Part shown: positions 1 to 40,406 of the stretch, piece by piece
Position numbering within the stretch: the first letter of the stretch is position 1
Layout of the letters: each line of letters opens with the position of its first letter
DNA from: a virus
Reading direction: 5' to 3' (one strand)
IMG/VR virus record: IMGVR_UViG_3300034103_001695
Coordinates: 1-40,406 of that record
Length of the DNA: 40,406 bases
The notes under the pieces: model-generated
Databases searched by the model: none
The model's input: only the letters and a program-made list of their open reading frames with translations
Told to the model about the DNA's origin: nothing
Position numbers and translations under genes: made by a program

Positions 1-127
1 CACCGTTTGCCATGGGGCGATGGCGTGGTCGATCTCGCGTCCGTGTTGCGTCGGGTGTTTGATCTGCTCGCCGAGCTGCGGCCACGCGGATCGATCGACG
101 ACGACATCGACGGCGATTTCGCCGAGC
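1..127. repeat. Terminal overlap of a circular contig (left copy)
   Basis: These 127 bases are identical to the last 127 bases of the window. The repeat lies inside one open reading frame that continues across the join, so it marks circular closure by the assembler (127 is a common maximum k-mer length) rather than a biological terminal repeat. Unique genome length is 40,279 bp. Confidence 0.95.
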
Positions 128-387
128 TGGAACGGGCCAAACTGCGCGAGGAAGTCCGCAAGCTGATCCGCCAGAACGAGCTGCTCATGGTCGAGCTGGA
201 TGAGAACCAAGGCAAGCTGATCCCACGCGACGAGATCCGCGATCGGCTGGGGTGGTTGTCGAGCCGATTGCGATCGCTCGGCACGCAGTTTCGCCGATGC
301 AAAACCGGCGACGACGCGGCCGACAAGCTGAACGAGGCCCTCGAACAGATCGCCGCTGAGATCGCCGACGGGACACTGCAATGGTGA
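1..387 (+). CDS. Terminase small subunit, 3' part (gene starts at 40043)
   Basis: This is the C-terminal 128 residues of a 207-residue protein whose first 79 codons are at 40043-40279. The small subunit recognises the packaging site and recruits the large subunit. The visible part is rich in charged helices, with a long coiled-coil-like stretch (ELERAKLREEVRKLIRQNEL) followed by a KLIPRDEIRDRLGWLSSRLR segment. That arrangement is typical of the C-terminal half of lambda Nu1-type subunits. The stop overlaps the start of the GpA-type large subunit by seven bases, the usual order. An internal TTG at 7-9 could be mistaken for a start, but the frame is open through the circular join. Family assignment rests on context and helix pattern; no DNA-binding motif was confirmed. 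Confidence 0.75.
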   Translation, partial: HRLPWGDGVVDLASVLRRVFDLLAELRPRGSIDDDIDGDFAELERAKLREEVRKLIRQNELLMVELDENQGKLIPRDEIRDRLGWLSSRLRSLGTQFRRCKTGDDAADKLNEALEQIAAEIADGTLQW

Positions 388-2462
388 AGCCCGTCGACGA
401 GGAACTGCGGATCGCACTGGTCAACGGCCAGTCCCGGCCGCCGCGATCGTTTCGCAAGTGGATCACCGACGAGCTGATCATTCCTTCGGGCCGGTTCGCG
501 GGCGAACGGTTTAAGCTTGAGACACAACCGGTCCTGAACCTGTGGATCGACGCCGTCGATTCTCACGAGTGGACCGACCTCGTGTTCCAGGCCGTCACCC
601 AGATGGGAAAAACGCTGTTTGGGTTCGTCGCTCCTTTGCTCTATCACACTTGCGAACTGGCCGAAAACTTTGTCCTCGGTGTCCCGTTTGGGGACATGGC
701 GTCCAATAAGTGGGACGCCGACATTCTGCCGGTGTTGATGGCCTCGCCGGGCCTGCGGAAATTGCTCCCGCGTCGAGGCTCTGGATCCGGCGGCGGCAAG
801 ATCCGCGACAGTGTCCAGCTCGCCAACGGTGCGATCCTCAAGATTATGAGCGCCGGGGCCGACGACGCCGGCAAGGCCGGGTTCACCGCCCGTTGTCTGT
901 CGATCACCGAGGCGGCTCGATTCTCGAGCGCCGGCACATCGTCGACCGAAGCCGACCCGCTGCGCCAGCTCCGCGGCCGACAGCGATCATTCCCGCGGGC
1001 CGAGCGTCGCACCTACATCGAGGGCACCGTCACCATCGAGGACGAGTTGCCCTGGCGATTGCGTCCCGAGTCGACGCGCTCGCGGATCCTGACCCCCTGC
1101 CCGCATTGCTCGCGATACGTGGCCCCAGGACGCGAGGACCTGGTCGGGTGGCGTGATGCCCGCAGCGAATTCGAAGCCGCGAGCCTGGCGCACTGGCGGT
1201 GCCCGAAATGCGAAACGCCGATCACCGAGGCCGAACGGCGGGACATGGTGTCGGCCGCCAAGCTGGTCCACCACGGCCAGTCGGTCGACAAGCTGGGGCG
1301 GGTCAGCGGATCACCACCGACATCGAGCCGCCTCTGGTTCCATGCGACCCCGTTCGTGAACCTGCTACTCGGCCCGCCCGACATCGCCACCGACGAGTGG
1401 CTGGCAAGCAAAATCCCCGACGATTCACCCGACCGCATCCAAGCCGACAAGGAGCTGACCCAGTTCGTTTGGTCGCAACCCTACACCCCGCCCAAGATCG
1501 ATGGCGAGATCGAACTGGACCGCAAGTCGATCGGGTCGCGGATGGCCTCGATCCCGCGCGGAGTCCTGCCGGCCGATCGCGTCTTTACCACCCTGGGCAT
1601 CGACATGGGCGAAACAAAGTCGTGGTTCGTTTTGCTCTGCTCGCGAGCCGACGGCACACTGCACATCGCTGACTATGGAGACTTCGATGTCCGGTCCGAC
1701 CTGGCACTGCCCGAGGTTGCCATGGTGTCAGCTCTCCAGGAATTTTGGAGAGTTGTCGAGGCGGGGTGGCAGGTCCAAGGGGGCGAGATCGTCCAACCCG
1801 ACCAGGCGTGGATCGACGCCGGCCACGAGGAAAAAGCGATCTGGCAATTCGTGCGCAGTCTCGAATCCCGCCAGCGGCTTGGCCAACAGGTGTTCGCGTC
1901 GCGTGGTCGAGGCGAGACGCAGATCGGGACGTCAAAGTGGGTTCCCGTCAAGAAAACGGGCAACCAGGTCCGCCAGATCGATCCCGGTGGTCGGTGGTAT
2001 GTCGAGTGGGTCACACGTGGCCGAGTGTTCGAGGTCCACTGGGACGCCGACCACGCCAAGGTGATCGCACAACACAGCCTGACGATCGACCAGTCGTCAC
2101 CCGGTGCGACGTCGATGTTCGCCGCGTCGAGCCGAATGCACGAACGTTTCGCGCGTCACATCTGCAACGAACGACGCCGCGAGGAACACCGACCCGGCCA
2201 GCGGCCACGTTATCGATTTTATCGAACAGGCCCCAACCACCTGCTCGACGCGTTTGCCCAGGCACTCGCCGCACAGATCCGGCTCGGCTGGGAACCGCCA
2301 CGCGTTGATCTCGATGGTCCCGACGAGTTGGCCAACGATCCGGCCGCGGCCCCGCTGCGGTCGGCACAATCGCCGACGGTCAAGGCTAAGACCAAACCCA
2401 CCACACCCCAAGACGAGGCACGCAAGCAACGCCAGGCCGATTGGTTCGCAAAGTTCCGTTGA
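381..2462 (+). CDS. terL: Terminase large subunit, GpA family
   Basis: This is the packaging motor and nuclease that cuts concatemeric DNA and pumps it into proheads through the portal. At 693 residues it has the normal GpA length. In order it shows a deviant Walker A (TQMGKT, residues 73-78), a Walker B-like SITEA (174-178), and a zinc-binding module with CPHC (240-243) and CPKC (274-277). The nuclease domain has acidic positions in GIDMGETKSW (D408), IDAGHE (D479) and a C-terminal HLLDAFAQAL. The zinc module between ATPase and nuclease is characteristic of the lambda gpA family and supports cohesive-end packaging, though no cos site was recognised. The ATG overlaps the small-subunit stop, suggesting translational coupling. 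Confidence 0.95.
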   Translation: MVKPVDEELRIALVNGQSRPPRSFRKWITDELIIPSGRFAGERFKLETQPVLNLWIDAVDSHEWTDLVFQAVTQMGKTLFGFVAPLLYHTCELAENFVLGVPFGDMASNKWDADILPVLMASPGLRKLLPRRGSGSGGGKIRDSVQLANGAILKIMSAGADDAGKAGFTARCLSITEAARFSSAGTSSTEADPLRQLRGRQRSFPRAERRTYIEGTVTIEDELPWRLRPESTRSRILTPCPHCSRYVAPGREDLVGWRDARSEFEAASLAHWRCPKCETPITEAERRDMVSAAKLVHHGQSVDKLGRVSGSPPTSSRLWFHATPFVNLLLGPPDIATDEWLASKIPDDSPDRIQADKELTQFVWSQPYTPPKIDGEIELDRKSIGSRMASIPRGVLPADRVFTTLGIDMGETKSWFVLLCSRADGTLHIADYGDFDVRSDLALPEVAMVSALQEFWRVVEAGWQVQGGEIVQPDQAWIDAGHEEKAIWQFVRSLESRQRLGQQVFASRGRGETQIGTSKWVPVKKTGNQVRQIDPGGRWYVEWVTRGRVFEVHWDADHAKVIAQHSLTIDQSSPGATSMFAASSRMHERFARHICNERRREEHRPGQRPRYRFYRTGPNHLLDAFAQALAAQIRLGWEPPRVDLDGPDELANDPAAAPLRSAQSPTVKAKTKPTTPQDEARKQRQADWFAKFR

Positions 2463-2551: not shown

Positions 2552-4267
2552 ATGCTCTACACCGCGGCCCAATTAAGCTTCCTCGTCGACCGCGGGCTCC
2601 GACCTGACGCCGACGACGCAACCGCCGAAATTTTCCAGCGCTCGCTGTCGCCGATCGACGCCGAGGCATTTTTCCGGATCGACCAAGTGATCCCGCCCGC
2701 GAACGCCGACGCAGTGATGCGGCAAGGCGAGCCGCAACCGCCCACCCCACCGCCCACGCCCCCGGCACCGACCACGCCCGAGAACGTCACGCGATCGGAA
2801 CCGGCCCAGCCCGATCAACAGTCGATCGAGCGGATCATCGCCGAGCGATTGGAAGCCGAGCGCGTCGCCCGCGTCGCACGCGCCGAGTACATCACCACGC
2901 AAGCCGGGACCGACGGAGCCGTCTCGCCCGACATCGTGGCCCGAGCCCTCCGCGAAGATTGGCCCCAGGATCGCGTCGACCGCGAATTCCTCGCCGAAGT
3001 CCGACGCCGAGCCCCTTCCGCGGGTGCGGGTGGCGTGGGGATTCACGTCCAACGCGGTGCGACCACGCAATCGCTCCAGGCCGGTTTGCTCCTACGCATG
3101 GGGGTCAACCTCCAGAACGAACAGATCGCCAGCCGCGAGGCCGGTGTGATGTTGCGCCGCACGGGTGTCGACGCCAATTGGCTCCACCAGGCCAACACCC
3201 AGATCGCCCGCGGGGCGCAGTTGTCGCCCGAATTCGAACGAGCGATGGACGGCGGCCACGAGTACGCGTCCTACAGCCTGGTAGATTTCTGCCGGGCCGC
3301 GCTGCAAGCCCAAGGGATGCAGATCCCCGCCGATCGTGGCGACATGATCCGCCGCTCGTTGTCGACCGCGACACTGTCCGCGGTGTTCTCGACCGCGTTC
3401 AATCTGGCCTTTGTGCAGGGGTATCTCGAATACCCCGATTCGACGCTCGGTTGGACCTTCGAGAACCTCGACGTCGCTGATTTCAAGCCGCAGGAACGGG
3501 GCATGATGAACCCCGGGACTGGGTTCACGCTCCAACCCCGCGGCAAGGTCGAAGCGAACCACATCACGTACGACGACGCGCTCGAGCGTTACTCGATCGA
3601 GCGTTACTCGGGCCAGTTCCAAGTCGACGATCGGGACATCATCGACGACCGATTCGGCAACGTTTCGCAACACAGCCCGGCCGAGCTGGGCCGCATGGGT
3701 CGCGCCACCCGACCGCGTTTGGTTTACACCGCACTGTTGGCCAACGCCAACATGCGGGACGGCGTCACGTTGTTCAACGCGTCACACAACAACGTGTTGA
3801 CGTCGTCGGCCCTCGACGCGACGACGCTGGCCGCAGCTGCGTCGGCGATGGCTCGCCAGACGATCAACGGCAACACGTTGTCGAACCTGATGCGGTTCCT
3901 GATCGTCCCGTCGTCGCTCGCGTTTGCGGCGGCTCGGTTGATCAACTCGGCCGAATTGCGCGACACCACGGCAAGCCGCTTGGCCGGTACCGCCAACCCG
4001 CACGAAGGGCAGTACCAGATCCGCAGCGAGCCACTGCTCGACAACGGTGTCGGCGGTTTCTCGGGATCGACCACCACCTGGTTCGGATCGGCCGCCGGTT
4101 CGACCCAAAAGACGATCGAGGTCGGGTACCTCCGCGGGACGCAAGGGGCCCCATCGGTCGAGTCGTTCATGCTTACCGGCGGCTCGTGGGGCATGGGTTG
4201 GAAGGCCAAGCTGGACATCGGTGTCAAGCCGATCACCTGGCATTCGCTGCTCCGAGCCACCGCCTGA
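2552..4267 (+). CDS. Major capsid protein with N-terminal scaffold-like region
   Basis: This 571-residue protein forms the capsid shell. The C-terminal two thirds resemble the capsid half of the prohead protease/major capsid fusion proteins of many proteobacterial prophages. Landmarks include a conserved block around GVTLFNASHNNVLTSSALD and a following FLIVPSSLAFAA strand. The first about 150 residues contain a Pro/Thr-rich linker (residues about 60-76) and a long charged helix (QQSIERIIAERLEAERVAR), as expected of a scaffolding delta-domain removed by the phage protease. Here the protease is a separate gene at 36582, about 6.2 kb upstream across the circular join. The gene is preceded by the late element and followed by a strong hairpin, consistent with an independent, abundant transcript. 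Confidence 0.85.
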   Translation: MLYTAAQLSFLVDRGLRPDADDATAEIFQRSLSPIDAEAFFRIDQVIPPANADAVMRQGEPQPPTPPPTPPAPTTPENVTRSEPAQPDQQSIERIIAERLEAERVARVARAEYITTQAGTDGAVSPDIVARALREDWPQDRVDREFLAEVRRRAPSAGAGGVGIHVQRGATTQSLQAGLLLRMGVNLQNEQIASREAGVMLRRTGVDANWLHQANTQIARGAQLSPEFERAMDGGHEYASYSLVDFCRAALQAQGMQIPADRGDMIRRSLSTATLSAVFSTAFNLAFVQGYLEYPDSTLGWTFENLDVADFKPQERGMMNPGTGFTLQPRGKVEANHITYDDALERYSIERYSGQFQVDDRDIIDDRFGNVSQHSPAELGRMGRATRPRLVYTALLANANMRDGVTLFNASHNNVLTSSALDATTLAAAASAMARQTINGNTLSNLMRFLIVPSSLAFAAARLINSAELRDTTASRLAGTANPHEGQYQIRSEPLLDNGVGGFSGSTTTWFGSAAGSTQKTIEVGYLRGTQGAPSVESFMLTGGSWGMGWKAKLDIGVKPITWHSLLRATA

Positions 4268-10200: not shown

Positions 10201-10224
10201 TCGCGACGCGATCGAGTTTTCAGA

Positions 10225-10245
10225 CCGCGGCTTGTGAGGCCGCGG
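10225..10245 (+). terminator. Hairpin after the cement gene
   Basis: A perfect 7-bp inverted repeat, CCGCGGC (10225-10231) and GCCGCGG (10239-10245), with a seven-base loop lies 24 bases after the cement-gene stop. There is no U-run. It probably terminates or stabilises the short cement transcript, like the capsid hairpin. Confidence 0.55.
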
Positions 10246-10279
10246 GTGTCGTTCGACCCGCCCCACGTGAGCCCCAGCC

Positions 10280-11242
10280 GTGAGCCTCTACACCCCCTAC
10301 GCGATCCGGTTCCACAACTCGACGATGACCACGGCGACGTTGCTGTCGGCGATCCGATCGCAGTCGATCGCCGTCAACAACTCGATCACGGCCGACACCG
10401 ACGCCGGGTCACCGTACCCGCAACACGTCGCCAACGCCGCACAAAAGCCGTCGGCTCAATTCGTCTCGACCGACGTCGCCGGCGCGTTGGACCTGGTCGG
10501 AACCGAAGGGTGGCCGATCAGTGCGACCAACGTTAGGCCGGGGCTCGACCTGTTTCAACTGTTAATCGATGCGACGACCGGACGACCCGCCGCGGGATCG
10601 GTCCACCGGCGGCTGAACATTCAACGCGGGATCGTCGTCCCACAATCGCTGACCGTCGACCACCAGGCCGACGCCCAATTGTCCATGCAGGCGTTTGCGA
10701 TCGCCGACCCGGCCGACACCGCAACGATCGGCGTGGCACCGCTGACGCCGTTCGCCAGCCAAGCCGCACCGACGGGGCTCGCTGGCGGATCACGCCACAC
10801 CCTGGGCCCAACCTCGATCGGTGGTGTGACGCTCGCCTGCAACCTGCGGGTCGAGATCAATTTCGGGGTCACCGTAATCACCGAAGGATGCAACAGCGAC
10901 ATCCACGACGCGGGGCTGTTGATCGCATCGAGCAACCCGACGATCCGGATCAGCGGCAAGAACATGGCCAAGTTCATCAGCGCCGACATCCCGTTGGCCG
11001 GCAAGGGTGCGACCCACGCCAACACGTCGATCGTGTTGCGCAAACGGTTGCAAACCACCGCCGGGTTCGTTGCGAATGCGACCGCCGAACACATCCTGAT
11101 TACCGCCGCCGGGATGGCCTGTTGGGAACAGGTCCACAGCGCCACCGGCAACGGACGCGTCGAGGACGTGTTGATGATTAGCTGTCGGCACGATGGGACG
11201 AACACGCCGATCGTGATCGACACCACCCACGCGATCCCCTGA
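10280..11242 (+). CDS. Probable major tail tube protein
   Basis: This 320-residue protein starts with GTG and stands alone between two hairpins, upstream of the tail chaperone and tape-measure genes. That is the canonical position of the tail tube gene in siphoviruses. It is beta-rich with few charged clusters. Features include RRLNIQRGIVVPQSLTVDHQ, a possible structural core, and paired cysteines in the second half. No named family was recognised, so the call rests on gene order and expected size. Hairpins on both sides suggest separately tuned expression, which fits an abundant tube subunit. Confidence 0.5.
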   Translation: MSLYTPYAIRFHNSTMTTATLLSAIRSQSIAVNNSITADTDAGSPYPQHVANAAQKPSAQFVSTDVAGALDLVGTEGWPISATNVRPGLDLFQLLIDATTGRPAAGSVHRRLNIQRGIVVPQSLTVDHQADAQLSMQAFAIADPADTATIGVAPLTPFASQAAPTGLAGGSRHTLGPTSIGGVTLACNLRVEINFGVTVITEGCNSDIHDAGLLIASSNPTIRISGKNMAKFISADIPLAGKGATHANTSIVLRKRLQTTAGFVANATAEHILITAAGMACWEQVHSATGNGRVEDVLMISCRHDGTNTPIVIDTTHAIP

Positions 11243-11260
11243 CCGACCGCTCGGGATGGC

Positions 11261-11276
11261 GGGGCCGCCGGGCCCC
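11261..11276 (+). terminator. GC-rich hairpin after the tail tube gene
   Basis: GGGGCC (11261-11266), loop GCCG, GGCCCC (11271-11276). A T-run (11309-11313) follows about 30 bases later, with further short complementary segments between. This is probably a transcription terminator or attenuator bounding the tail tube message. Confidence 0.55.
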
Positions 11277-11337
11277 ATAGCGGGCTACACGCTCCGTGGG
11301 CTCGGCGGTTTTTGCCCTTTTCAATCAATCGACCCCA

Positions 11338-11589
11338 ATGCCAACGAACGAACCAAAACCAATTCCAAAGCCGATCGACGTGGTCACCGTGTTGTGTCGG
11401 GTTTGTGGTTGGGGCCGCATCCAAGCGGCCCAGGTGGCGATGGGGATGGACGCCGCCACGATCAAAAGCGTCGAGGGGTCGTACGCAAGATCGGACCGCG
11501 AAACGATCGTCGTGGCGGCGTTCTCTACCCTCGCCAAACTTCGCCAAGCCCCCCCCGACCCCGTACCCGAACCGACCCCCAAACCCTGA
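11338..11589 (+). CDS. Small protein between tail tube and chaperone genes
   Basis: This 83-residue protein has proline-rich ends (EPKPIPKPIDVV at the start, DPVPEPTPKP at the end) around a helical centre. The centre, VLCRVCGWGRIQAAQVAMGM, has a CxxC and could hold a helix-turn-helix. The ATG at 11338 is chosen because the upstream in-frame ATG lies in the preceding terminator region. Small tail assembly chaperones occupy this position in siphoviruses. The role is unconfirmed. Confidence 0.5.
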   Translation: MPTNEPKPIPKPIDVVTVLCRVCGWGRIQAAQVAMGMDAATIKSVEGSYARSDRETIVVAAFSTLAKLRQAPPDPVPEPTPKP

Positions 11590-11609
11590 CCCGAGGCCAC
11601 CACGACCCC

Positions 11610-12467
11610 ATGGCTGGTTTTCTCTATTTCCTCCCCGACCTGCGGACCGTTAAACCGTCCGACATCACGGCCCATCGGCTCGATTACGCGATCGAGTCGA
11701 AACAGATCCAGCCGATCACCCTGGGCCCTGGTGATCGCCCGGGCGTGATCGTCGCCGACGCGTCATCGATGGACCGGGCCGCGGTCCGGTACCGACCGAC
11801 GACGCAAACTTGGCACCGCTGCACCCGCAGCGACGGCCCGACGCCGTGGGTCGGTTGGTACACCGACGAGCCACCCGCCGCGGCCGACCTGGTAAGGCCG
11901 TCAACCCTGCCGGGTCTCGACGTGACATTGCCCGATGGGGACCGGTACCAGGTGCCGATCGCCAGGCGGTTTAGCGATTTCGAGGGGCGGCTGTTGTGGT
12001 CGTGTGCCCTGCCCCAGTCGCTCGCCCGCGACATGACCGGCGTGTGGGTGCCTCGTGGCCCGATCGCACGCTATGCCCGGCTGTGGGACTTGCTCCAGGG
12101 GTTTTTGATCGCACGCGAGGCGGCGGTCGCCGAGGCCACCGACGGCGGGACGGTCTATTTCGACTATCCACCGATCAACGATTTGGCGATCGCGATCCTG
12201 GGGATCAATTACCGAGTCGGGGCCGACGAGCTGGAACACCGGGGCCTGTGGACCCAGGACGTACGGGACGCGATCCTGCGCGTCGCTTGTGACGATGCGA
12301 CCCGCGAGGCGTGGGTAAAAAAAAAGATGTTGGAAACGGTCCACGCTGGTGGTCTTTCCTTGCCTGGGCCCGATCCGTCGACGCCGGCCGACCGAACCAA
12401 CACGCCCCCACCGTGGCCGATCTCTACGCCCACAGTGTCGGACTCCACCGCTGAGGCAATTGCATGA
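11610..12467 (+). CDS. Putative tail assembly chaperone with -1 frameshift site
   Basis: This 285-residue protein is encoded immediately before the tape-measure gene and overlaps it by four bases (ATGA). That is the position of lambda G/GT tail chaperones. The body has a beta N-terminus (GFLYFLPDLRTVKPSDIT) and a helical second half (NDLAIAILGINYRVGADELE). A run of nine A residues (12317-12325) is in frame as GTA AAA AAA AAG, giving a perfect A-AAA-AAG heptamer. After a -1 slip the ribosome would read 42 codons ending at the TGA at 12452, giving a 281-residue variant with an aromatic C-terminus (PRWWSFLAWARS). The zero-frame tail is Pro/Ser/Thr-rich. The chaperone role is inferred from position and the slippery site. 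Confidence 0.6.
   Translation: MAGFLYFLPDLRTVKPSDITAHRLDYAIESKQIQPITLGPGDRPGVIVADASSMDRAAVRYRPTTQTWHRCTRSDGPTPWVGWYTDEPPAAADLVRPSTLPGLDVTLPDGDRYQVPIARRFSDFEGRLLWSCALPQSLARDMTGVWVPRGPIARYARLWDLLQGFLIAREAAVAEATDGGTVYFDYPPINDLAIAILGINYRVGADELEHRGLWTQDVRDAILRVACDDATREAWVKKKMLETVHAGGLSLPGPDPSTPADRTNTPPPWPISTPTVSDSTAEAIA
12320..12326 (+). promoter_or_regulatory. A-AAA-AAG slippery heptamer, candidate -1 frameshift
   Basis: The heptamer is in the correct phase for tandem -1 slippage (codons AAA AAG). It is the dnaX-type sequence, located about 140 bases before the end of the presumed tail chaperone gene and just upstream of tape measure. The -1 frame stays open for 42 codons. No obvious stimulatory pseudoknot was identified by eye. 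Confidence 0.45.
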
Positions 12468-27346: not shown

Positions 27347-27379
27347 GTGTGTCACCGGACGGCTTGCGCCGTGCCGCTA
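27347..27379. repeat. 33-bp palindromic element, copy 2
   Basis: Identical to 22656-22688. On the minus strand its first three bases are the TAG stop of the gene at 27377-27919, and its GNRA-loop hairpin lies in the 61-base gap ahead of the initiator gene. It may work as a transcript boundary. Confidence 0.85.
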
Positions 27380-27919
27380 GGGTGTGGAGGGTGTGGAGGG
27401 TTTGGTAAGGTTTGCGATTAGGTCGCGGGAATAGTCGCTGAGGATCTCGGCCGGGAGTTTGGCGAGAACGTTGTGGAATTGGTGGAGCCTGGCCGCCATG
27501 ACCCGCAGGATCAAACCGCGGCCGGTGATCGGTGGGAGCGGGTTGAGGTCCTCGATCGAGACCGCGACGTCGTCTAGTTTCGCGAGCTGGTAGAGGTTGG
27601 CCGTTGCCCAAAACGTCGGAGTGGTGTCGCCGATAGTACGGTAGAGGTCGAGCGGACAACCGAGCGTCTCCAGCCGGCACCGTGGCACCATCGGGCTGTG
27701 GGCGATCACGTGGACCACGTGGCGCGAGTAGACCGCGGCGGTGATCGCGGCCGTCGCCCCGTCGGAGAATCCGATCAGCGTCGCCGGTGCGGTTAGATGG
27801 CGGCCGAAGTCCTCCGCGTTGCGATGGTTCCAGTTGATGCGATCGACGGCCAGAACCTTGTCCGGGTCGAAGTAGCGGCCGAGGCTGTGGCCGAAGCCGT
27901 TAAGGGCGTAGAATTCCAT
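27377..27919 (-). CDS. Alpha/beta-hydrolase-like protein
   Basis: This 180-residue protein shows a GxSxG nucleophile elbow, GFSDG (residues 50-54, Ser52), preceded by a hydrophobic strand (APATLI) and followed by the helix ATAAITAAVYSRH. That is the classic alpha/beta-hydrolase order. Candidate acid and His residues are in the C-terminal half (LPPITGRGLILRV, then LHQFHNVLAKL). The protein is shorter than typical esterases (about 200-280), so it may be a minimal or pseudo-hydrolase. It is coupled by a one-base overlap to the ASCH gene and sits in the replication operon, an odd place for an esterase. The stop codon lies in the palindromic element. Confidence 0.6.
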   Translation of the reverse strand: MEFYALNGFGHSLGRYFDPDKVLAVDRINWNHRNAEDFGRHLTAPATLIGFSDGATAAITAAVYSRHVVHVIAHSPMVPRCRLETLGCPLDLYRTIGDTTPTFWATANLYQLAKLDDVAVSIEDLNPLPPITGRGLILRVMAARLHQFHNVLAKLPAEILSDYSRDLIANLTKPSTPSTP

Positions 27920-28323
27920 CACTTGGGTGCCTCCCAGGTGATCATGACGCCGACGAATGTCCCGACGCCGTATTGATCGCCGAACCACTGGGCCATCTCG
28001 GCGACGTCGTCGAAGCCGTCCGCCCACGCGATGTCGGACTCGTCGACAGCCTGGCCGTCGATCAGGATTTCGGTGATCTCGTGGGCGATGTTTTGGGCGG
28101 TCGGTTTTGCTTGTACGATCTCGATCTCGATCTTGTGACATCCGGTACAGATGGGATCGGTCTCGACGATCTTCGAACAGGTTGGGGTCCGCATCCCGGT
28201 ATAGAGCTGGACGGGCTCGCCCGTGCGGGCGTGGCGGCGTTTGCCGATCGGGCGGATCGTTTGGCACTTGGTGCCGCTGCGGATCGCGTCGATAAATTGC
28301 GGGGCGAATGAATAGGCGACCAT
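27919..28323 (-). CDS. ASCH-domain protein
   Basis: This 134-residue protein has the ASCH (PUA-like beta-barrel) pattern: FAPQFIDAIRSGTKCQTIRP, the basic HARTGEPVQLYTGMRT strand, a CTGCH motif, and a C-terminal FDDVAEMAQWFGDQYG helix. ASCH proteins bind RNA or modified nucleobases, and phages often carry one near replication genes. The ATG at 28323 is supported by GAAGGA seven bases upstream. The stop overlaps the next start by one base. Confidence 0.8.
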   Translation of the reverse strand: MVAYSFAPQFIDAIRSGTKCQTIRPIGKRRHARTGEPVQLYTGMRTPTCSKIVETDPICTGCHKIEIEIVQAKPTAQNIAHEITEILIDGQAVDESDIAWADGFDDVAEMAQWFGDQYGVGTFVGVMITWEAPK

Positions 28324-32246: not shown

Positions 32247-33461
32247 TCAGCGTGTGAACCCGCCTAGGATCGGCACCGTGAGCAGGGCCTCGACGAGCGG
32301 CGTCTCGGATCGCCGATAGTGACGGGCCTGGACCTCGGTCGTGATGCCTCCCGATCGCTCGGCCGCGTGGCCGGTGACGTACTTCGACACGCCGGGCCGG
32401 TGATCTTCGAGCCACGTGACGCAGGTCTTGCGCAGGTGCTTGGGGAGCAGTTTGACCGGCTCGTCGGACCAGCCGGTCGCGGTGACGCCGGCGGCCTTGA
32501 GGATCTGGTCCCACTGCCAATAGAAGCCGACGAGGCCGCGTTCGGCCGATCCGGCTGTCGTGGGCCAGTCGAAGACGGGTGCCGATGGCACGGGCACCAG
32601 GCCGACGCGTAGCCGGTCCAGGTGATGGCGTACCAACGGCGTGATCGGCAGGATTAGCGGGTCGGGTTTGATGCCCGAGGTTTTCGTGGGCACGAACGAT
32701 AGCCATCCGTCTGGGTTGTTCATTTTGCCCGCAGGGTGCGGTGTGCGGCTGTCTCGTCGGATCGATGACCAGTTGAGGCCGTGACCCGTTGGCGAGAGCG
32801 TGATCGCGTCCTCGGTCCTCATGCCGTATGTCGCGAGCAACACGATCAGGGCCTGCCAGCCTTCGGCCGGTGTGTAGGGCAACGGCCATCGGCCAGGCGT
32901 GGCCGTTGACGATCGCCGATAGGTCGGCCAAGTGGCGACGTCGCAGGCGTGATATATCCGCGACAGCTCGGCTTGGCTGAGGGTGTAGATGGTCGACGCG
33001 GACCGGTAGGGGACCGAGTCGATCGTCGGGGCCTGTTCGAGGATCCCGAGCCTGGCACCCTTGGCCAGGATCGCTCGGATAGAGCCGATCGTCTTGTTGG
33101 TGGCTCGCGGCGGATGTCCTTGTGATCGGAGCCATCGCTGGAACGCGACGAGGCTCTTGGCCGTAATTTGTGCCAGGACCGGATTGACTATCCGGTCGGC
33201 GTCCGACCGTTGCGGCGATTTGGAGGAAATAGGAAAAGCAGCGCAGAACGCATCGAATCGATCGAGCGAGCGTTCGTAGTCCTCGCGAGTTGCTCGCGTC
33301 CTGATGGTCGGCGAGACGTGGGCAACGTACAGATCGCGGACGGTCCAGGTGTGGGCCAGATGGTCGTCTGAGGCCCACGGGTCCGACACTGGGTCGACCG
33401 AGTGCAGACGTGGGTGTGGGATTGTCGAGCGGGTGTCGGTAGGACGTAAGGGCTGGATCAT
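32247..33461 (-). CDS. int: Tyrosine recombinase integrase
   Basis: This 404-residue enzyme integrates and excises the prophage. The N-terminal core-binding domain covers about residues 38-150 (IRTRATREDYERSLDRFDAF). The catalytic domain has R215 (GMRTED), K260 (PTKTSG), H342-x-x-R area (KHLRKTC, R344), H365 (VTGHAAE) and the nucleophile Y382 (ARHYRRS), so all key residues are intact. It is the first gene of the minus-strand block, and the likely attP is 490 bases upstream. An intact enzyme means the phage is temperate or was recently so. Confidence 0.93.
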   Translation of the reverse strand: MIQPLRPTDTRSTIPHPRLHSVDPVSDPWASDDHLAHTWTVRDLYVAHVSPTIRTRATREDYERSLDRFDAFCAAFPISSKSPQRSDADRIVNPVLAQITAKSLVAFQRWLRSQGHPPRATNKTIGSIRAILAKGARLGILEQAPTIDSVPYRSASTIYTLSQAELSRIYHACDVATWPTYRRSSTATPGRWPLPYTPAEGWQALIVLLATYGMRTEDAITLSPTGHGLNWSSIRRDSRTPHPAGKMNNPDGWLSFVPTKTSGIKPDPLILPITPLVRHHLDRLRVGLVPVPSAPVFDWPTTAGSAERGLVGFYWQWDQILKAAGVTATGWSDEPVKLLPKHLRKTCVTWLEDHRPGVSKYVTGHAAERSGGITTEVQARHYRRSETPLVEALLTVPILGGFTR

Positions 33462-33948: not shown

Positions 33949-33995
<47 letters not shown>

Positions 33996-34074
33996 TTCTC
34001 ACGGGCCGGATCTGTTATGATCGTGGTGTTTAGCCCCTTCCCATTTTGCCCAAGTTTTTTCGGTTTTTTTTACA

Positions 34075-34314
34075 ATGAACCACGCAAACCTGATTGTCTG
34101 CCGTGTTTTTTCTGTTGTGGTTTGGGTGTGGTTGATTGGGTCGATAGTCGCGTTGGTGTTGTTGACGCTGTTGGCCGCAATTAAACAGGACGGAGCGAGT
34201 CTGGAAAAAGTTTGGGCGTTTTGGTTCCCCCAGGTTTTTCCAGCCTTGAGTGGTGTTGTGCTTGCCGACGTTGCCGAGCGTCTACGCCGAGCGTACCCAG
34301 ATCGTCAGGACTGA
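34075..34314 (+). CDS. Small membrane protein
   Basis: This 79-residue protein has one long or two close hydrophobic segments: a strong one at about residues 10-33 (VFSVVVWVWLIGSIVALVLL) and a weaker one at about 50-62 (FPQVFPALSGVVLA), with a basic C-terminus (ERLRRAYPDRQD). It lies alone between attP and the divergent WYL gene, overlapping the latter's stop by ten bases. Small membrane proteins beside the attachment site are often lysogenic-conversion or superinfection-exclusion genes. No ribosome-binding site is obvious. Confidence 0.5.
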   Translation: MNHANLIVCRVFSVVVWVWLIGSIVALVLLTLLAAIKQDGASLEKVWAFWFPQVFPALSGVVLADVAERLRRAYPDRQD

Positions 34315-34664
34315 GGCGATTCGCCGATCAGTACCGATGCGGCGGGTATCGATCGCACATCATGGCATTGGGTCAGCCTGAACCGTCTTGGCTCTCCACG
34401 TGTCAGGCACAAAGCGACAAACGAGCCGCCATCCCATTTGATTGGTGACACGTAGCGACGACTACGCTCACCATCGGCCGAGATGTACGACATCTCGATT
34501 GCCAACCGATCTGGGTCACGCATGGCCCGCGTGATGACAGCGGCCGCTTCCGGGCCGTTTTTGGCCGTCTGGACCTCTGGTGGGGGGGGTGGGTGAGGCT
34601 GGGTCCTTCCCGGGGGGGTGGCGGTCGGGGCGTCGCCAACATATCGGCCGGAATTTTTGCGCAC
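34305..34664 (-). CDS. Lone WYL-domain protein
   Basis: This 119-residue protein has a proline-rich N-terminal 40 residues and then a WYL-type Sm-like beta barrel: ITRAMRDPDRLAIEMSYISA, GERSRRYVSPIKWDGGSFVA and LCLTRGEPRRFRLTQ. WYL domains sense ligands or nucleic acid and normally follow an HTH domain in regulators; no HTH is fused here. GTG 34664 is favoured by AGGA eight bases upstream. The gene diverges from the head operon across a 90-base gap holding late element copy 4, a suitable position for a late or lysogeny switch protein. Confidence 0.6.
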   Translation of the reverse strand: MRKNSGRYVGDAPTATPPGRTQPHPPPPPEVQTAKNGPEAAAVITRAMRDPDRLAIEMSYISADGERSRRYVSPIKWDGGSFVALCLTRGEPRRFRLTQCHDVRSIPAASVLIGESPQS

Positions 34665-34710
34665 GTCAAATTTCCTGGGGAGAGAGAGAAGCCGCGCTAC
34701 ACACCCTACA

Positions 34711-34725
34711 GGCAACGCCGTGACC
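34711..34725 (+). promoter_or_regulatory. Late-region repeat element, copy 4 (head operon)
   Basis: GGCAACGCCGTGACC lies 44 bases before the first head gene, in the divergent gap opposite the WYL gene. It differs from copies 1 and 2 at one position (A to G). Confidence 0.5.
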
Positions 34726-34754
34726 ATGGCAACGCGTTGGCCATCATCTTTGGC

Positions 34755-35033
34755 ATGGGAATCGACATCGCTGGCAGAATCGAACGTGCGAACGACCTGA
34801 TCGACCAAGCGATCGCGGCCGATGATGACGGCAATCCTTCCGAGGCGCTACGGTTGATCGATCAGGCGTCCCTGTTGATCGCGATGGTGCCCGACTCCGA
34901 GCTGGAGGACGAGTCTTTTAGCTGGGACCGCGAAGCGATCGATCGGGCGCGTAAGGCGTTCGCGCGGCGAGCCAACATGGTCGGCGGAATGCAGACGCAC
35001 GAGGTCCGATACGTAAGGGAATCTCATGACTAG
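34755..35033 (+). CDS. Small protein in gpW position
   Basis: This 92-residue, acidic, helical protein (IAGRIERANDLIDQAIAADD, EALRLIDQASLLIAMVPDSE, then DREAIDRARKAFARRANMVG) is the first gene of the head operon. It overlaps the portal start by eight bases. A small gene immediately before the portal matches the position of lambda W, a head-tail joining protein of similar size, but the sequence pattern looks TPR-like rather than W-like. The frame is open upstream to 34593, but that stretch is not protein-like. Confidence 0.55.
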   Translation: MGIDIAGRIERANDLIDQAIAADDDGNPSEALRLIDQASLLIAMVPDSELEDESFSWDREAIDRARKAFARRANMVGGMQTHEVRYVRESHD

Positions 35034-36585
35034 CTCGCTCGCGTGGTCGATCGATTGCTTGGCGTCGGTCCCGGCGAAGCGATCACCAGACACCTGGGGC
35101 AAACCGGTACAAGTCGCCGAGCGAAGCCTCGCGAATTATGACGCACCGGCGGAACCGTTGCCCGGTGGTGCGATCCTGCGACGGTGGGAAGCCGGATTTA
35201 CTGATCGGCTGAACGAGGCACACTGGGCCCACGCGCATGGGGCACCGATCAACCACGATTTGGCGATCGATCTCCCACGGCTGCGGGCTCGGACCGCGTG
35301 GGAAATGAGCAACAACCCGATCGTCGACGGGATGATCACGACGCATTGTCAGGACCTTGTGGGGCCGGCGGGTCCGATCCTGCAGGTGTATTCGAGCGAC
35401 GATAGATTTTCGAGCCGGCTCGAATCCCGTTGGGCGGAGTGGTCGGAGATTTGCGAGGCGTCTGGCGATACTCTGGTCGACCTGCTCAAGCTGTGGTTTC
35501 GGTCGCTGTGGGCTACGGGTGAGCTGCTCGGCCAAGTCGTCACCGACGAGGACTCGCCATTTCCGGCGACGATGCGGATCTTGCCATTGCACGCGGATCG
35601 GCTCGCGACACCCCACAACATGGTTGCCGCGGCGGATGTCGCTTTGGGGGTCAGACGTAATAAAAACGGCCGGCCGCTGGCCTACTTTATCAGCGACCTA
35701 ACCTACACCGGACCGTGGCAACAACTGACCGGCAAGTTCGACGAGAAGGCCGCTCGGTTTATTCACCACGGGTTTTTCAAGGTTGAGCCCGGACAGGTCC
35801 GTGGGTTTCCGTTGCTGGCCTCGGCACTGCCGGCGATCGCCGACATCCGCGACTATGACACCCAGGTCCTCGACGCTGCGCGAGCAGCTGCTGACACCGG
35901 GGTGTGGTTTTTCAATTCGAACCCGGACGGCGAGAAGTGGGCCGGGGCTGAGGCGATCGAAGTACCCACCAAAAGGCGAGTGAACCGCACGGCCCCGCCG
36001 GGGTGGCAACCGATGCAGCTGCAACCCGGGCACCCGACCGCCAACTACAGCGAGCACCGTCGCGAGCGTATGGTCGAGTTCGGCCGCGCGGCGTCGATCC
36101 CGTTGATGATGATTCGCTTGGACTCGTCGCTCCACAATTACTCGTCGGCTCGGTTCGATCACCAGGTCTACGTCCAAGGGTTGGCGGTGTGGCGGTCCTG
36201 GATCGCGCGCAAAAACCTGCGGCGGATGGTGATGGACCTGGTCCGTGAATTGCAATTGGCGAGGGACCTTGGGCCGATGCCGGCCGACACCCGATTGGCA
36301 TGGGGCTGGCAGATGCCGCCGCACGTCGACCCCAGCAAGGAACGAGCGGCCGAGCGGATCGGATTACAAAACCGGACGCTGACGTTCGAAGCCGCTTGCA
36401 ACGCGGGATCCCAAAGCCAGGAGGACGTGATCGCGTCCTGGGCCAAGACCATGCGATTGCTCAAGGATTCCGGATTCGACGACTCCGCGATCGAGGCGTT
36501 CCTCGCAACGCTGGGATTCACTGACCGATCGGGGACGGCGTCGGTTCGAGCGATCACCTCGACGCAACAAGGGGCGACAAAATGA
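35026..36585 (+). CDS. Portal protein, lambda family
   Basis: This 519-residue protein forms the dodecameric DNA channel at the capsid vertex. It matches the lambda B/PF05136 pattern: RARTAWEMSNNPIVDGMITT near the N-terminus, SLWATGELLGQVV and HADRLATP in the wing, KVEPGQVRGFPLLASALPA at the crown, the LHNYSSARFDHQVYVQGLAV block, and WQMPPHVDPSKERAAERIGL near the C-terminus. Length is normal. It is followed by the protease gene with an ATGA overlap. Confidence 0.93.
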   Translation: MTSSLAWSIDCLASVPAKRSPDTWGKPVQVAERSLANYDAPAEPLPGGAILRRWEAGFTDRLNEAHWAHAHGAPINHDLAIDLPRLRARTAWEMSNNPIVDGMITTHCQDLVGPAGPILQVYSSDDRFSSRLESRWAEWSEICEASGDTLVDLLKLWFRSLWATGELLGQVVTDEDSPFPATMRILPLHADRLATPHNMVAAADVALGVRRNKNGRPLAYFISDLTYTGPWQQLTGKFDEKAARFIHHGFFKVEPGQVRGFPLLASALPAIADIRDYDTQVLDAARAAADTGVWFFNSNPDGEKWAGAEAIEVPTKRRVNRTAPPGWQPMQLQPGHPTANYSEHRRERMVEFGRAASIPLMMIRLDSSLHNYSSARFDHQVYVQGLAVWRSWIARKNLRRMVMDLVRELQLARDLGPMPADTRLAWGWQMPPHVDPSKERAAERIGLQNRTLTFEAACNAGSQSQEDVIASWAKTMRLLKDSGFDDSAIEAFLATLGFTDRSGTASVRAITSTQQGATK

Positions 36586-37130
36586 ACGCGATCATCCGCA
36601 AAGCTGCGACCGGAATTCACCAGCGACGCCTCCCAGCGGACTGGATCGCGCGGGCCGCGTACGTCGACGCCAAGACCATGAACGAGACGACTCGCTCGAT
36701 CATGGCCACCATCGCGACCGAAAACCCGGTCATGGTGTACGACTGGAACAACGGCCGCAGGATGCAGGAAGTCCTGTTGTCGACCGGGGCAGAGATGCCC
36801 GAGTGGACGCCGATGCTCGACAGCCACAACCCCTACAGCCTGTTGACCCTCGGCTCGGTGAAAAACTACCGGCGGAGCGGATCCAACATTCTTGGGGAGC
36901 TGGTTTTCGCCGCCGATTCAGCCATCGATCCGATTTGGCGACGCGTTGCCGATGGCCACCTTCGGGCCGTTTCGGTCGGGGGCTTGCGGCGTGAATGGGT
37001 CGACATCGAGCCCAAGCAATCGGCGCAGGTCGCTGGCCGGCGATGGACGGCGGGATCTCTACCGATGCGGATCACGACATCGTGGATGATTCGCGAGACG
37101 AGCGTCGTCGTGTTCGGTGCGGACGGCTGA
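36582..37130 (+). CDS. Prohead protease
   Basis: This 182-residue HK97-type serine protease matures the prohead. The catalytic His is in MLDSHN (H82) and the catalytic Ser in RAVSVGG (S131), the spacing of this family. Strands around SVKNYRRSGSNILGELVFA and MRITTSWMIRETSVVVFGAD complete the fold. In many related phages this domain is fused to the capsid protein that here lies at 2552. The unfused state with about 5.7 kb between the protease stop and the capsid gene is unusual. It should cut the N-terminal part of the capsid protein. Confidence 0.85.
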   Translation: MNAIIRKAATGIHQRRLPADWIARAAYVDAKTMNETTRSIMATIATENPVMVYDWNNGRRMQEVLLSTGAEMPEWTPMLDSHNPYSLLTLGSVKNYRRSGSNILGELVFAADSAIDPIWRRVADGHLRAVSVGGLRREWVDIEPKQSAQVAGRRWTAGSLPMRITTSWMIRETSVVVFGADG

Positions 37131-37135
37131 ATTCC

Positions 37136-37150
37136 GGCAACGGCGTGACC
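37136..37150 (+). promoter_or_regulatory. Late-region repeat element, copy 3 (export cassette)
   Basis: GGCAACGGCGTGACC starts six bases after the protease stop and 128 bases before the first signal-peptide gene. It is related to the copies at 2465, 9738 and 34711. Confidence 0.5.
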
Positions 37151-37227
37151 TGGTCCTGGGGCGTGGTCTGATTTGATGGCCATCCCGGCAAGTTTTCTCG
37201 CGGCGTGTGTCTGCGCCGTTCGTGCCT

Positions 37228-37244
37228 GGATGGTTCCACCATCC
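37228..37244 (+). promoter_or_regulatory. Leader hairpin of the export cassette
   Basis: GGATGGT (37228-37234), loop TCC, ACCATCC (37238-37244), a perfect 7-bp stem 19 bases before the ATG at 37264. The loop is close to a CsrA-type GGA hairpin in shape, but it presents UCC, not GGA. It could influence ribosome access. Confidence 0.4.
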
Positions 37245-37263
37245 CACGCTATGAGGCACCGCG

Positions 37264-37668
37264 ATGATCCCGCGATTCTTGTTTCTTTCTTTGTTGGTGT
37301 TTGCTTTTGCTGGACAGTCTTTTGCGCAGGCGACCGCCGAACCGACCCTGATCGCCAGCTCCGACGCCCCGATTTTTGGCGACTCGGGTTTCACTGCGGA
37401 CCGGCTCGACACGTTAATCCTCGCGTGTTGTGACGACGAGTCGATCCCCAAGGCGAAACGCGACCAGATCCGCAGGATCATGGAGGGCCGCGGGCCGTTC
37501 AAGAAACTACAGAAACGCATCCTTACCGAACGGGTCCGCACTCGGTTGGCCGAGGAAGGAATGATCGACGTGGACTCCCAGGGCACGACCTACGCGGCGA
37601 TTCCCTGGGACGAGCTGCTCAAGTTCCTGACGACGATCCTGCCGCTGTTGATCCAGTTATTCGGATGA
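37264..37668 (+). CDS. Exported protein with hydrophobic C-terminus
   Basis: This 134-residue protein has a clear signal peptide (MIPRFLFLSLLVFAFAGQSF, cleavage after about residue 21), then an acidic region with CCDDE. A helical charged part follows (AKRDQIRRIMEGRGPFKKLQ), ending in a hydrophobic tail (LLKFLTTILPLLIQLFG). The export signal plus an amphipathic or membrane-seeking tail fits an envelope-acting lysis factor. The ATG overlaps nothing upstream; the next gene starts in its stop codon (ATGA). Confidence 0.65.
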   Translation: MIPRFLFLSLLVFAFAGQSFAQATAEPTLIASSDAPIFGDSGFTADRLDTLILACCDDESIPKAKRDQIRRIMEGRGPFKKLQKRILTERVRTRLAEEGMIDVDSQGTTYAAIPWDELLKFLTTILPLLIQLFG

Positions 37669-37826
37669 TCATCCTCGAACATTTTCGCCAGATGTCGCGA
37701 GCGATTTCGGCGGCCCTGGTTGCGTTCGGTGTCGATCTCGATTCGGCCATTCACTGGCCGGATCTGTTTCTTGATTGCTCGATCATCATCCTCTATTGGA
37801 TTGCGTCATGTTTTGGAGTCGCTTAG
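37665..37826 (+). CDS. 53-residue hydrophobic protein, holin candidate
   Basis: The tiny gene has an ATG overlapping the previous stop (ATGA), and its 3' end overlaps the next gene by 19 bases. Two moderately hydrophobic segments (ISAALVAFGVDLDSA; DCSIIILYWIASCFGVA) could span or insert into the membrane. Its place between two exported proteins and upstream of a protease makes it a candidate holin or pinholin, but it is short and the prediction is tentative. Confidence 0.45.
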   Translation: MIILEHFRQMSRAISAALVAFGVDLDSAIHWPDLFLDCSIIILYWIASCFGVA

Positions 37827-38542
37827 TTCTGGTGGCATGTGTCCTCTGCAGTGCAACCGCACGGGCCGAGGTCAAAGCCGTGTTGACCGGGCCCGAGGAA
37901 GCCGAGGCCGGGGACCTGGTCGTGATCGATGCCACGGGCTCGATCGGTGATGGGTTTAGGTTTCGGGTCGACGAACGCCTAGTCGGTCGGGTGTTCGCGA
38001 TCGATCGGCGGGTTATCTTCGCAACGAGGACGCCCGGCGTGTATCAATTCCAGGTGATCGTCGCCGATCGCGAGGCACGGATCGACGAGGTGACGTTATC
38101 GGTCAAAGTCGGTCAGATTCCACCACCGACCCCACCCGAGCCACCAAAGCCGCCACCGCCACCAGGGCCGCCCCCATTGCCACCTGCGGACGTCGACCCG
38201 CAGCTGCGGTCGGCACTGACCGCGGGATTCGCCACGCGTAAAACTGACGCGGCGATCTGGTCCGGGATGCTGCTCGGGATGGGGCGTGTCGTCGAGTCGG
38301 ACGCGACCAAACAATCCGGGCCGAGGCTCAAGACGATGGCGGACGTCGACGAGCTGCGTAACCTCATCGTCCGGGCACCGTCCCAACCCGTCAGTGGTGG
38401 CGACGTTATCGCCCCAGCGATCGGCCCAGGGCTCGCGGCGATCGGTGGACCAGCGGACAAGATTGACGAGGCCGGTCGGCGGGCCGCGGTGGCCAAACTG
38501 CTGATCGGTGCGGCGACCGTGTTGGATGAGGTGAGCCGATGA
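37808..38542 (+). CDS. Exported PKD-like protein with long Pro-rich linker
   Basis: This 244-residue protein has a signal peptide (MFWSRLVLVACVLCSATARA, cleavage after about residue 20; an LxxC-like motif leaves a lipoprotein possible). An Ig/PKD-like beta domain follows (about 22-103, AVLTGPEEAEAGDLVVIDAT, GVYQFQVIVADREA). A rigid proline-rich linker (about 105-126) leads to a helical C-terminal domain (about 128-244, LRSALTAGFATRKTDAAIWS). The proline rod could span the periplasm in a spanin-like manner. The start at 37808 is preferred over an earlier ATG because it gives a clean signal peptide. The stop overlaps the protease gene start. Confidence 0.65.
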   Translation: MFWSRLVLVACVLCSATARAEVKAVLTGPEEAEAGDLVVIDATGSIGDGFRFRVDERLVGRVFAIDRRVIFATRTPGVYQFQVIVADREARIDEVTLSVKVGQIPPPTPPEPPKPPPPPGPPPLPPADVDPQLRSALTAGFATRKTDAAIWSGMLLGMGRVVESDATKQSGPRLKTMADVDELRNLIVRAPSQPVSGGDVIAPAIGPGLAAIGGPADKIDEAGRRAAVAKLLIGAATVLDEVSR

Positions 38543-39537
38543 GCGACACCAACATCCTGAACAAGCCAACCGGTTGGACCCCCAACCCGGAAGGGGTCGA
38601 GGAAATTATCCGCGACCCGAACAACATGGTCCGCGATCTGACCCGCGGCCAGGCAATGGACCTTCGCGCGACGTTGTCGAAGGCGTCCCGAGACGCCAAG
38701 CGGCGGGTCATGTTGACCGATGCGTTGCGAGTGCTCGAACCAAATTGGAAACGAGGGGCGCAAAAGATTGGCGACTGCGTCTCGTGGGGTTGGGAGATTG
38801 CGGGGACGTTGTCCGTGGCCCACGACATTGTCACGCGAGCCCGCCCGATCACGTGGCCGGGAGTGATGGCGACCGAGTCGCTGTACGGTCTGATGCGGGT
38901 CGAGGCGATCGGCAAACGTCGAGGCGGGTACCAAGACGGGGCATACGGTGCGGCGGCGGCCAAGGCGGCCACGACCTATGGTTTTCTCGCTCGCCAAGAC
39001 TACAGCGGCGAGACTGGCAACAAAGACCACGACCTCCGCGCGTACTCTGGCGAGCGGGCCAAGGAATGGGGCAATTTCGGCAACGGCGGGGAACGCGACG
39101 CCGGCAAACTGGACGAGGTCGCAAAGCGATTCCCGTCGAGTGAATGCCCACGGATCAAGACGTTCGAGGATGCCGCGGCGTCGATCGAACAGGGTTGGTC
39201 GGTCGCAGTCTGTTCCAACTACGGTTTCAACGGGTCGCGAGACCGTTTTGGATTTAAGCAAAAGCGAGGGACCTGGTACCACTGCCTCAATTTTTTCGCG
39301 ACTCGGTGGGATCGGCCCGGGCTCGGTTGTATGCAGTCCTGGGGCAATTCCGAGGGGCTGGAAAACGCAGACCCGCCTGACGTTTGGCCCGAGTTGGCGA
39401 AATGTTTTTGGTGGGTCGATCCAGCCACGGCGACCGGCATGTTGTCGCAAGGTGACAGCTACGCCGTGACCGGGATCGAAGGGTTCAAACTTCGAGAGAT
39501 CGATTGGCTCAAAGGATGGGAGGTAACAGGGCAATGA
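38539..39537 (+). CDS. Papain-fold (C1-like) cysteine protease, possible lysin
   Basis: In this 332-residue protein the catalytic Cys block is QKIGDCVSWGWE (Q75, C80), the His block is TWYHCLNFF (H248) and the Trp-Gly block is MQSWGNSEG. The last replaces the classical Asn-Ser-Trp-Gly with Gln-Ser-Trp-Gly, leaving N270 as a nearby candidate. No signal peptide is present, so release through a holin-like pore or packaging in the virion would be required. Its position in the export cassette suggests an endolysin role against a proteinaceous or amidated wall, but prohead or ejection functions are possible. The C-terminal 60 residues are extra to the papain core. Confidence 0.65.
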   Translation: MSDTNILNKPTGWTPNPEGVEEIIRDPNNMVRDLTRGQAMDLRATLSKASRDAKRRVMLTDALRVLEPNWKRGAQKIGDCVSWGWEIAGTLSVAHDIVTRARPITWPGVMATESLYGLMRVEAIGKRRGGYQDGAYGAAAAKAATTYGFLARQDYSGETGNKDHDLRAYSGERAKEWGNFGNGGERDAGKLDEVAKRFPSSECPRIKTFEDAAASIEQGWSVAVCSNYGFNGSRDRFGFKQKRGTWYHCLNFFATRWDRPGLGCMQSWGNSEGLENADPPDVWPELAKCFWWVDPATATGMLSQGDSYAVTGIEGFKLREIDWLKGWEVTGQ

Positions 39538-40046
39538 TGACCAGAATTCTATTTTGTGCGGTGATCAGTCTGGCCGGCGTTGCAACGGCGCAGCAACCGA
39601 CGGGCCAGGCACGGGGCTGGGCGTGGGCGTTGGTCGGTGCGGTTGGTATGAACCAAGCCACACCCGCACCCGCACCCAGCCCGACCCCGTCGGGGATCTG
39701 CCAACAGTGCAACGGGACCGGCAAGGTCGGAGACGGTCGGGTCTCGGCGACGTGTCGAGAATGCAACGGCACGGGCAAAACGGTCACCACACCGACGCCC
39801 ATACCCGACACCAAACCAGCGACCAAACGCGGGACGATCGTCATGTTCTGCCGACCCGGTTGCATCTACTGCGACAAGTGGGTCGCCGAGGTGAAGCCAC
39901 AACTCCGAGACCAGTGGACGATCGACGAACGCAAGGACCCCGAGGGACCGGTCCCAAATTTCGAGATCCGCATCGGCACGCGTGTGATCATCCACGAGGG
40001 GTTTTTGTCGCTGAAACAACTCGCGGAGATCATCGGCGCAAAGTGA
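39534..40046 (+). CDS. Exported thioredoxin-fold protein with DnaJ zinc finger
   Basis: This 170-residue protein has a signal peptide (MMTRILFCAVISLAGVATAQ). Next come a Pro-rich linker, two CxxCxGxG DnaJ-type zinc repeats (C56, C59; C74, C77) and a glutaredoxin/thioredoxin-like domain with CIYC (C110, C113, plus C106). Thus a zinc finger and a redox CxxC are exported together. It could catalyse or isomerise disulfides of the neighbouring cysteine-containing proteins or of host envelope proteins. The ATG overlaps the protease stop (ATGATGA), with GGAGG upstream. Its stop overlaps the GTG of the terminase small subunit. Confidence 0.7.
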   Translation: MMTRILFCAVISLAGVATAQQPTGQARGWAWALVGAVGMNQATPAPAPSPTPSGICQQCNGTGKVGDGRVSATCRECNGTGKTVTTPTPIPDTKPATKRGTIVMFCRPGCIYCDKWVAEVKPQLRDQWTIDERKDPEGPVPNFEIRIGTRVIIHEGFLSLKQLAEIIGAK

Positions 40047-40406
40047 TCCCCGAGGGCCTTAGCGATTCCGATCGGCGGCGGGTTCGTCGAGCACTCCAGG
40101 CCGCACTGGAGCGGCTCGACGGGGTCGAATACTCGGCCCGCAAGCTGGCCGACGTGAAATGGTTCGAGCGACGTTTGGCCGACGACGAGCGGCGGCGATT
40201 GTTCGCCGCATTTCCGAAGGGGTTGCTCGGTCAATTGTCCGGTCGTCGCCACGCCCAGCTCGACGACCTCGCGGCCAAACACCGTTTGCCATGGGGCGAT
40301 GGCGTGGTCGATCTCGCGTCCGTGTTGCGTCGGGTGTTTGATCTGCTCGCCGAGCTGCGGCCACGCGGATCGATCGACGACGACATCGACGGCGATTTCG
40401 CCGAGC
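40043..40406 (+). CDS. Terminase small subunit, 5' part (continues at 1)
   Basis: This is the N-terminal part of the 207-residue protein that ends at 387. GTG 40043 overlaps the stop of the thioredoxin gene (GTGA) and gives a frame that passes the junction without a break. The N-terminal helices include RRRVRRALQAALERLDG and a basic ARKLADVKWFERRLADDE. No convincing HTH was found, although Nu1-type proteins normally have one at the N-terminus, so the packaging-site binding mode may differ. From 40280 on the sequence is the terminal overlap. Confidence 0.7.
   Translation, partial: MIPEGLSDSDRRRVRRALQAALERLDGVEYSARKLADVKWFERRLADDERRRLFAAFPKGLLGQLSGRRHAQLDDLAAKHRLPWGDGVVDLASVLRRVFDLLAELRPRGSIDDDIDGDFAE
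40280..40406. repeat. Terminal overlap of a circular contig (right copy)
   Basis: Identical to 1-127. See the left copy. The reading frame of the terminase small subunit is unbroken across it. Confidence 0.95.

Follow-up and report, generated by a model that had tools for sequence, protein, structure and literature searches.

A conserved late-gene cassette with a papain-fold protease is a candidate host-release module of planctomycete phages

In the window analysed here, a 40,406-nucleotide stretch of viral DNA (IMG/VR record IMGVR_UViG_3300034103_001695), five overlapping genes, A to E, are encoded next to the packaging genes. We consider it likely, with moderate confidence, that they form a late-expressed host-release module of planctomycete phages, acting in lysis or in opening of the envelope. 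Neither this virus nor its relatives yielded an ordinary wall-dissolving enzyme, and the cassette is therefore probably their exit route from bacteria with unusual walls; the papain fold of its protease, the exported context, the late position, and the lack of a detected endolysin together lead us to infer a function in lysis.

The first 127 bp of the window are identical to its last 127 bp, leaving 40,279 unique bases. This terminal repeat marks the window as a complete genome, so that the placement of the cassette between prohead protease and terminase in the initial annotation is literally true. On the circular map, the order of the late region is portal, head protease, A to E, TerS, TerL, and capsid gene, as follows.

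35026..36585 (+), portal protein (PF05136, 1.2e-44)
36582..37130 (+), head maturation protease (phrog_4523, 1.8e-17)
37264..37668 (+), A, 134 aa, signal peptide
37665..37826 (+), B, 53 aa, one C-terminal hydrophobic segment
37808..38542 (+), C, signal peptide, PKD-like sandwich, Pro-rich linker, and five-helix domain
38539..39537 (+), D, predicted papain-fold cysteine protease
39534..40046 (+), E, signal peptide, two CxxCxGxG motifs, and a CxxxCxxC thioredoxin/glutaredoxin-like domain
40043..40406 (+), putative TerS, 5' part, named by position; the gene crosses the terminal repeat and ends at window position 387
1..387 (+), putative TerS, 3' part; positions 1-127 repeat 40280-40406
381..2462 (+), TerL of the GpA type (PF05876, 6.9e-21; PF20454, 3e-11)
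2552..4267 (+), major capsid protein (phrog_4523 match)

The cassette has the composition first described for it, with three signal-peptide proteins (A, C, and E), the hydrophobic B, and the protease D occupying 37264-40046. Its successive genes overlap by 4, 19, 4, and 4 nt, and the series continues with an overlap of 4 nt between E and TerS and of 7 nt between TerS and TerL across the genome junction. The head block is indeed split, as had been noted: the head protease and capsid genes match adjoining parts (13-167 and 165-641) of phrog_4523, the 'major head and protease protein', and the cassette, TerS, and TerL stand between these two separate genes. A scan of 34000-40406 for promoters of the sigma-70 type found none, including between the protease and A, and we therefore regard A to E as belonging, with the terminase, to a single late operon. 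On the same sigma-70 scan we rejected the idea of a moron with its own promoter. A late gene position near the packaging genes is a feature by which lysis cassettes are recognised, and A to E have it. All five ORFs are under purifying selection, with dN/dS values against the relative L004 of 0.19 (A), 0.21 (B), 0.20 (C), 0.08 (D), and 0.24 (E), compared with 0.22 for the neighbouring head protease; D is the most conserved, and the value for B indicates that even this 53-aa ORF is a real gene. Elsewhere in the window, a protein that is tyrosine-recombinase-like by motif (32247-33461, -) adjoins a tRNA-Asp gene (33950-34024, -), which suggests that the virus is probably a temperate phage with tRNA attachment.

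Sequence searches of Pfam, PHROGs, and the PDB gave no family match for D, and only a fold search resolved it. An AlphaFold (AF2) model built from 47 relatives was confident (pLDDT 91.1, pTM 0.89); its nearest PDB fold in Foldseek was the C1A peptidase xylellain (3ois; E 1.1e-8, TMt 0.67), followed by cathepsins and papain, and among viral models it matched other phage Peptidase_C1 proteins. The original papain-like call is borne out by this model, according to which D is a papain-fold cysteine protease with predicted peptidase activity. The active site Q-C-H-[N/Q] appears in papain order as Gln75, Cys80, His248, and Gln266, and Gln75, Cys80, His248, and Ser267-Trp268-Gly269 are invariant across the 47 relatives. 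Just before SWG, most relatives have Asn, whereas the window clade (Gln266) and the L020 clade (L020:7992-8990) both have Gln. D therefore shares the fold and the Q-C-H-N/Q-SWG active-site pattern of papain family C1A (xylellain, cathepsins, papain) but differs in its IGDCVSW motif, its phage late-gene context, the replacement of Asn by Gln in the window clade, and the lack of a match to Pfam Peptidase_C1 (PF00112) in any of the 47 members at E-values up to 0.1. None of the 47 had a relevant Pfam match of any kind, and D is, judging from the model, a member of the papain fold outside the Pfam Peptidase_C1 family. The window D carries no signal peptide; a hydrophobic segment N-terminal to the catalytic domain is present, by crude hydropathy, at 32 of the 49 D loci left after removal of redundancy at 90% identity of D.

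A profile scan detected D relatives in at least 327 viral contigs and retained the best 80; tblastn found none in the isolated phages of INPHARED. Among cellular genomes, D occurs in three MAGs, two of them planctomycete and one unclassified, and in a prophage of Blastopirellula marina DSM 3645, and it is present in 11 of 392 sampled Planctomycetota genomes. Since D-bearing prophages reside in Planctomycetota, we infer that this is the host group, in agreement with the planctomycete host that had been suggested. A C-type cluster lies just upstream of D at 42 of the 49 loci, and at 26 of the 49, searches seeded from the window or from relatives recognised a TerL, portal, or capsid gene near D on the same strand. 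These TerL proteins come from several PHROG families (15, 38, 2, 979, and 9). The check for conservation in related phages was thus favourable: C, D, and usually another exported or membrane protein constitute a conserved unit, and divergent phages and prophages retain C-D(-E) next to a portal, terminase, or capsid gene. Sharing of a host-linked module by phages that otherwise differ is the pattern expected of a lysis cassette. The position of D between portal/protease and terminase/capsid genes in the window could also fit a protease that, like other products of the head block, processes the virion or is packaged in it for entry. This role is highly improbable, because a separate head protease is present, most D relatives have an N-terminal membrane segment and membrane or exported partners, and the module is found beside different capsid and terminase families. 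One of the D-bearing phages, G014 (L109-L112; 60.5 kb, complete), encodes 5-hmdU DNA kinase and amino acid:DNA transferase domains, from which DNA hypermodification is probable.

In a curated collection of dsDNA phages, 97.4% encode a recognisable lytic protein (PMC12596118). Whole-record searches for Amidase_2, Phage_lysozyme, SLT, Peptidase_M15_3, Peptidase_M23, NLPC_P60, and CHAP, with positive controls, found none of these seven families in 31 D-bearing viral records, most of which are fragments. The window, G014, and G020 are complete by their terminal repeats, and Pfam scans of the called genes in these three genomes likewise found no wall hydrolase; a few ORFs lay outside the scan, including a 1,580-aa G014 protein, and in one scan the matches listed comprised the first 25 of 32 families. 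These results agree with the earlier observation that no classical endolysin is visible. An alpha/beta-hydrolase-like protein is encoded at 27377..28267 (-, start uncertain) in the window, with 34% identity over 85 aa to a signal-peptide hydrolase located directly upstream of the L020 cassette (L020:6204-6707, +), and may be an accessory envelope esterase. Titles and abstracts of the literature on planctomycete phage biology mention no lysis system.

That no other muralytic candidate was found is also compatible with D being a conventional endolysin whose fold class is new. Such a papain-type peptidase would cut peptide cross-links in the thin peptidoglycan of planctomycetes, C and E would assist export or folding, and exit would still be by lysis, though not by a protein-wall system. 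Planctomycetes do have a peptidoglycan-like layer (PMC5814848), and NlpC/P60 and CHAP lysins lie within the wider papain-like superfamily (PMC10318531). However, the nearest folds to D are protein-cleaving C1A peptidases rather than NlpC or CHAP enzymes, and no NlpC/P60 or CHAP match was found for the D family, and we regard this version as unlikely. The peptidoglycan-like layer nevertheless counts against our preferred model of a host-release module, since one would expect any lysis system to have a means of overcoming this layer.

The slot that D occupies can be filled by another protease. The TerL of the B. marina prophage has close counterparts in six sampled planctomycete genomes, four of which have D. 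The other two, the prophages G240 and G362, have a 55%-identical TerL, and the slot upstream of it holds a different papain-type protease together with an exported thioredoxin.

L186:5882-9123, unrelated papain-type protease and exported thioredoxin, upstream of the 55%-identical terminase
L187:9044-12125, the same arrangement

The layout there comprises a soluble protein, two single-TM proteins, the protease, the exported thioredoxin, and a TM/coiled-coil protein, and the same arrangement is found in two further viral contigs. The protease bears the motifs RQTLGSCASH, GHAIYAV, and NSWGTWGDAGYGY, and neither BLAST nor profile comparison detected relatedness to D. The presence of an unrelated papain-type protease in the equivalent position suggests that what matters for the slot is the kind of protein rather than its family, a papain-type cysteine protease being required and, in this lineage, an exported thioredoxin as well.

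The remaining members of the cassette are exported or membrane proteins, with membrane partners called by hydropathy. A, C, and E start with signal-peptide-like segments. A, which has relatives in L020 and L004, ends in a hydrophobic or amphipathic helix (LLKFLTTILPLLIQLFG) and is a possible membrane-active partner; B is a holin candidate by size and place only, and neither protein had a family match. Small TM proteins occur in the cassettes, with no firm match to a holin family in PHROGs. Downstream TM/coiled-coil proteins in relatives matched Rz-spanin PHROGs weakly (best 6.8e-4), possibly because of their coiled-coil composition, and no spanin pair could be demonstrated in the window. In C, the helical domain (AF2 pLDDT about 96) is the part conserved in the family alignment, the sandwich has a weak Foldseek match to PKD domains (E 0.012), and several relatives are lipoprotein-like. 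A chagasin-type protease inhibitor was considered for C and rejected, given that Ig-like matches reached only E 0.2-0.5 and the typical motifs were not seen. In G014 the usual place of C, directly upstream of D, is taken by a signal-peptide protein with a staphylococcal-nuclease-like motif (L109:10593-11117, -).

E had been proposed as a redox helper. The window protein has two CxxCxGxG motifs of the DnaJ type (E 6e-5, but below the cut-off) and a weak thioredoxin-like match (PF13098, E 0.013, also below the cut-off). Exported relatives of E in L064, L068, L095, and L097 contain thioredoxin domains above the Pfam cut-off and in this respect resemble the thioredoxin-fold exported oxidoreductases (Thioredoxin_7, Thioredoxin), from which E differs by its location in a phage cassette, its Pro-rich linkers, and its DnaJ-like CxxCxGxG motifs. 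Such domains were found in 8 of 42 testable E relatives, a minority, and we rejected a universal redox role; the proposal is only partly right, with clear thioredoxin domains in some relatives and the weak match in the window protein itself.

Cassette-like sets of C, D, and exported or TM proteins are also found among ordinary chromosomal genes in three planctomycete chromosomes.

L097:7127-10047, cassette-like set
L151, about 8441-11880, cassette-like set
L153:8450-10906, cassette-like set

No recognised phage genes were present in the 7-10 kb examined on each side, and the L097 cassette has a GC content of 0.477 compared with 0.43 in its flanks. These copies are possibly remnants, or lysis cassettes kept (domesticated) for the host's own purposes. 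A pure lysis role does not predict chromosomal cassettes without visible phage genes, which leaves room for another role and suggests that use of the cassette may not be restricted to phage release. They would also suit a host-surface or superinfection-exclusion module, in which an exported protease and its partners trim receptors or envelope proteins during infection or lysogeny, as would the exported and membrane proteins of the cassette and a sequence diversity typical of envelope-facing proteins. We nevertheless judge such a module rather improbable, considering that gene overlaps couple the cassette to TerS and TerL, no sigma-70-like promoter separates the protease from A, many phages keep the module beside packaging or head genes, and these phages would be left without any visible lysis enzyme.

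Under the host-release model, the module would be made late in infection together with the packaging genes. A and B, or the small TM proteins in relatives, would permeabilise or organise the inner membrane, and C would hold or position the system in the envelope. D would be the wall-opening enzyme in the endolysin's place, reaching the periplasm and cutting the load-bearing wall. In most relatives it would be anchored in the inner membrane by its N-terminal segment and face the periplasm, as signal-anchor endolysins do; D of the window clade lacks this segment and would therefore need a membrane-permeabilising partner, A or B, for its release. The exported and potentially disulfide-active E, and its thioredoxin relatives, could keep the catalytic cysteine of D reduced or open disulfide-linked wall proteins. 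According to one description, the planctomycete wall is a disulfide-bonded protein sacculus (PMC2754498), and this protein wall would be the likely substrate, with the peptide bonds of thin peptidoglycan as the alternative. A more far-reaching proposal, which we advance only tentatively and do not think probable, is lysis by protease and thiol reductase: these phages would dispense with peptidoglycan hydrolases and instead reduce and proteolyse a disulfide-linked protein wall, unrelated papain-type proteases would have filled the slot at least twice, and some host chromosomes would have kept the cassette for their own use.

The cassette resembles those of lambda, Mu, and N4, in which signal-anchor (SAR) or canonical endolysins are encoded with holins and spanins, in being a small late cluster near the terminase with one enzyme and small membrane proteins, and in an enzyme that may or may not have an N-terminal membrane anchor. 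It differs in that the enzyme is a predicted papain-fold cysteine protease outside every Pfam peptidoglycan hydrolase family, and in having an exported thioredoxin-like or zinc-finger partner instead of a confident holin or spanin. PeiW, PeiP, and PeiR are cysteine peptidases. Encoded by methanogen viruses, they are likewise viral peptidases directed against a host wall other than standard murein, but they cut the isopeptide bond of pseudomurein, and in archaea (PMC4592898, PMC6189367).

In the titles and abstracts of the literature found, phage lysis of Planctomycetota is apparently undescribed. There is also a long-standing debate about the nature of the stress-bearing layer in planctomycete cells. 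A widespread phage protease family in the endolysin's place would make both questions, the mode of lysis and the nature of this layer, directly testable. Hundreds of viral contigs that lack annotation can be assigned to a new family through D, which may also serve as a genomic marker for planctomycete-infecting phages.
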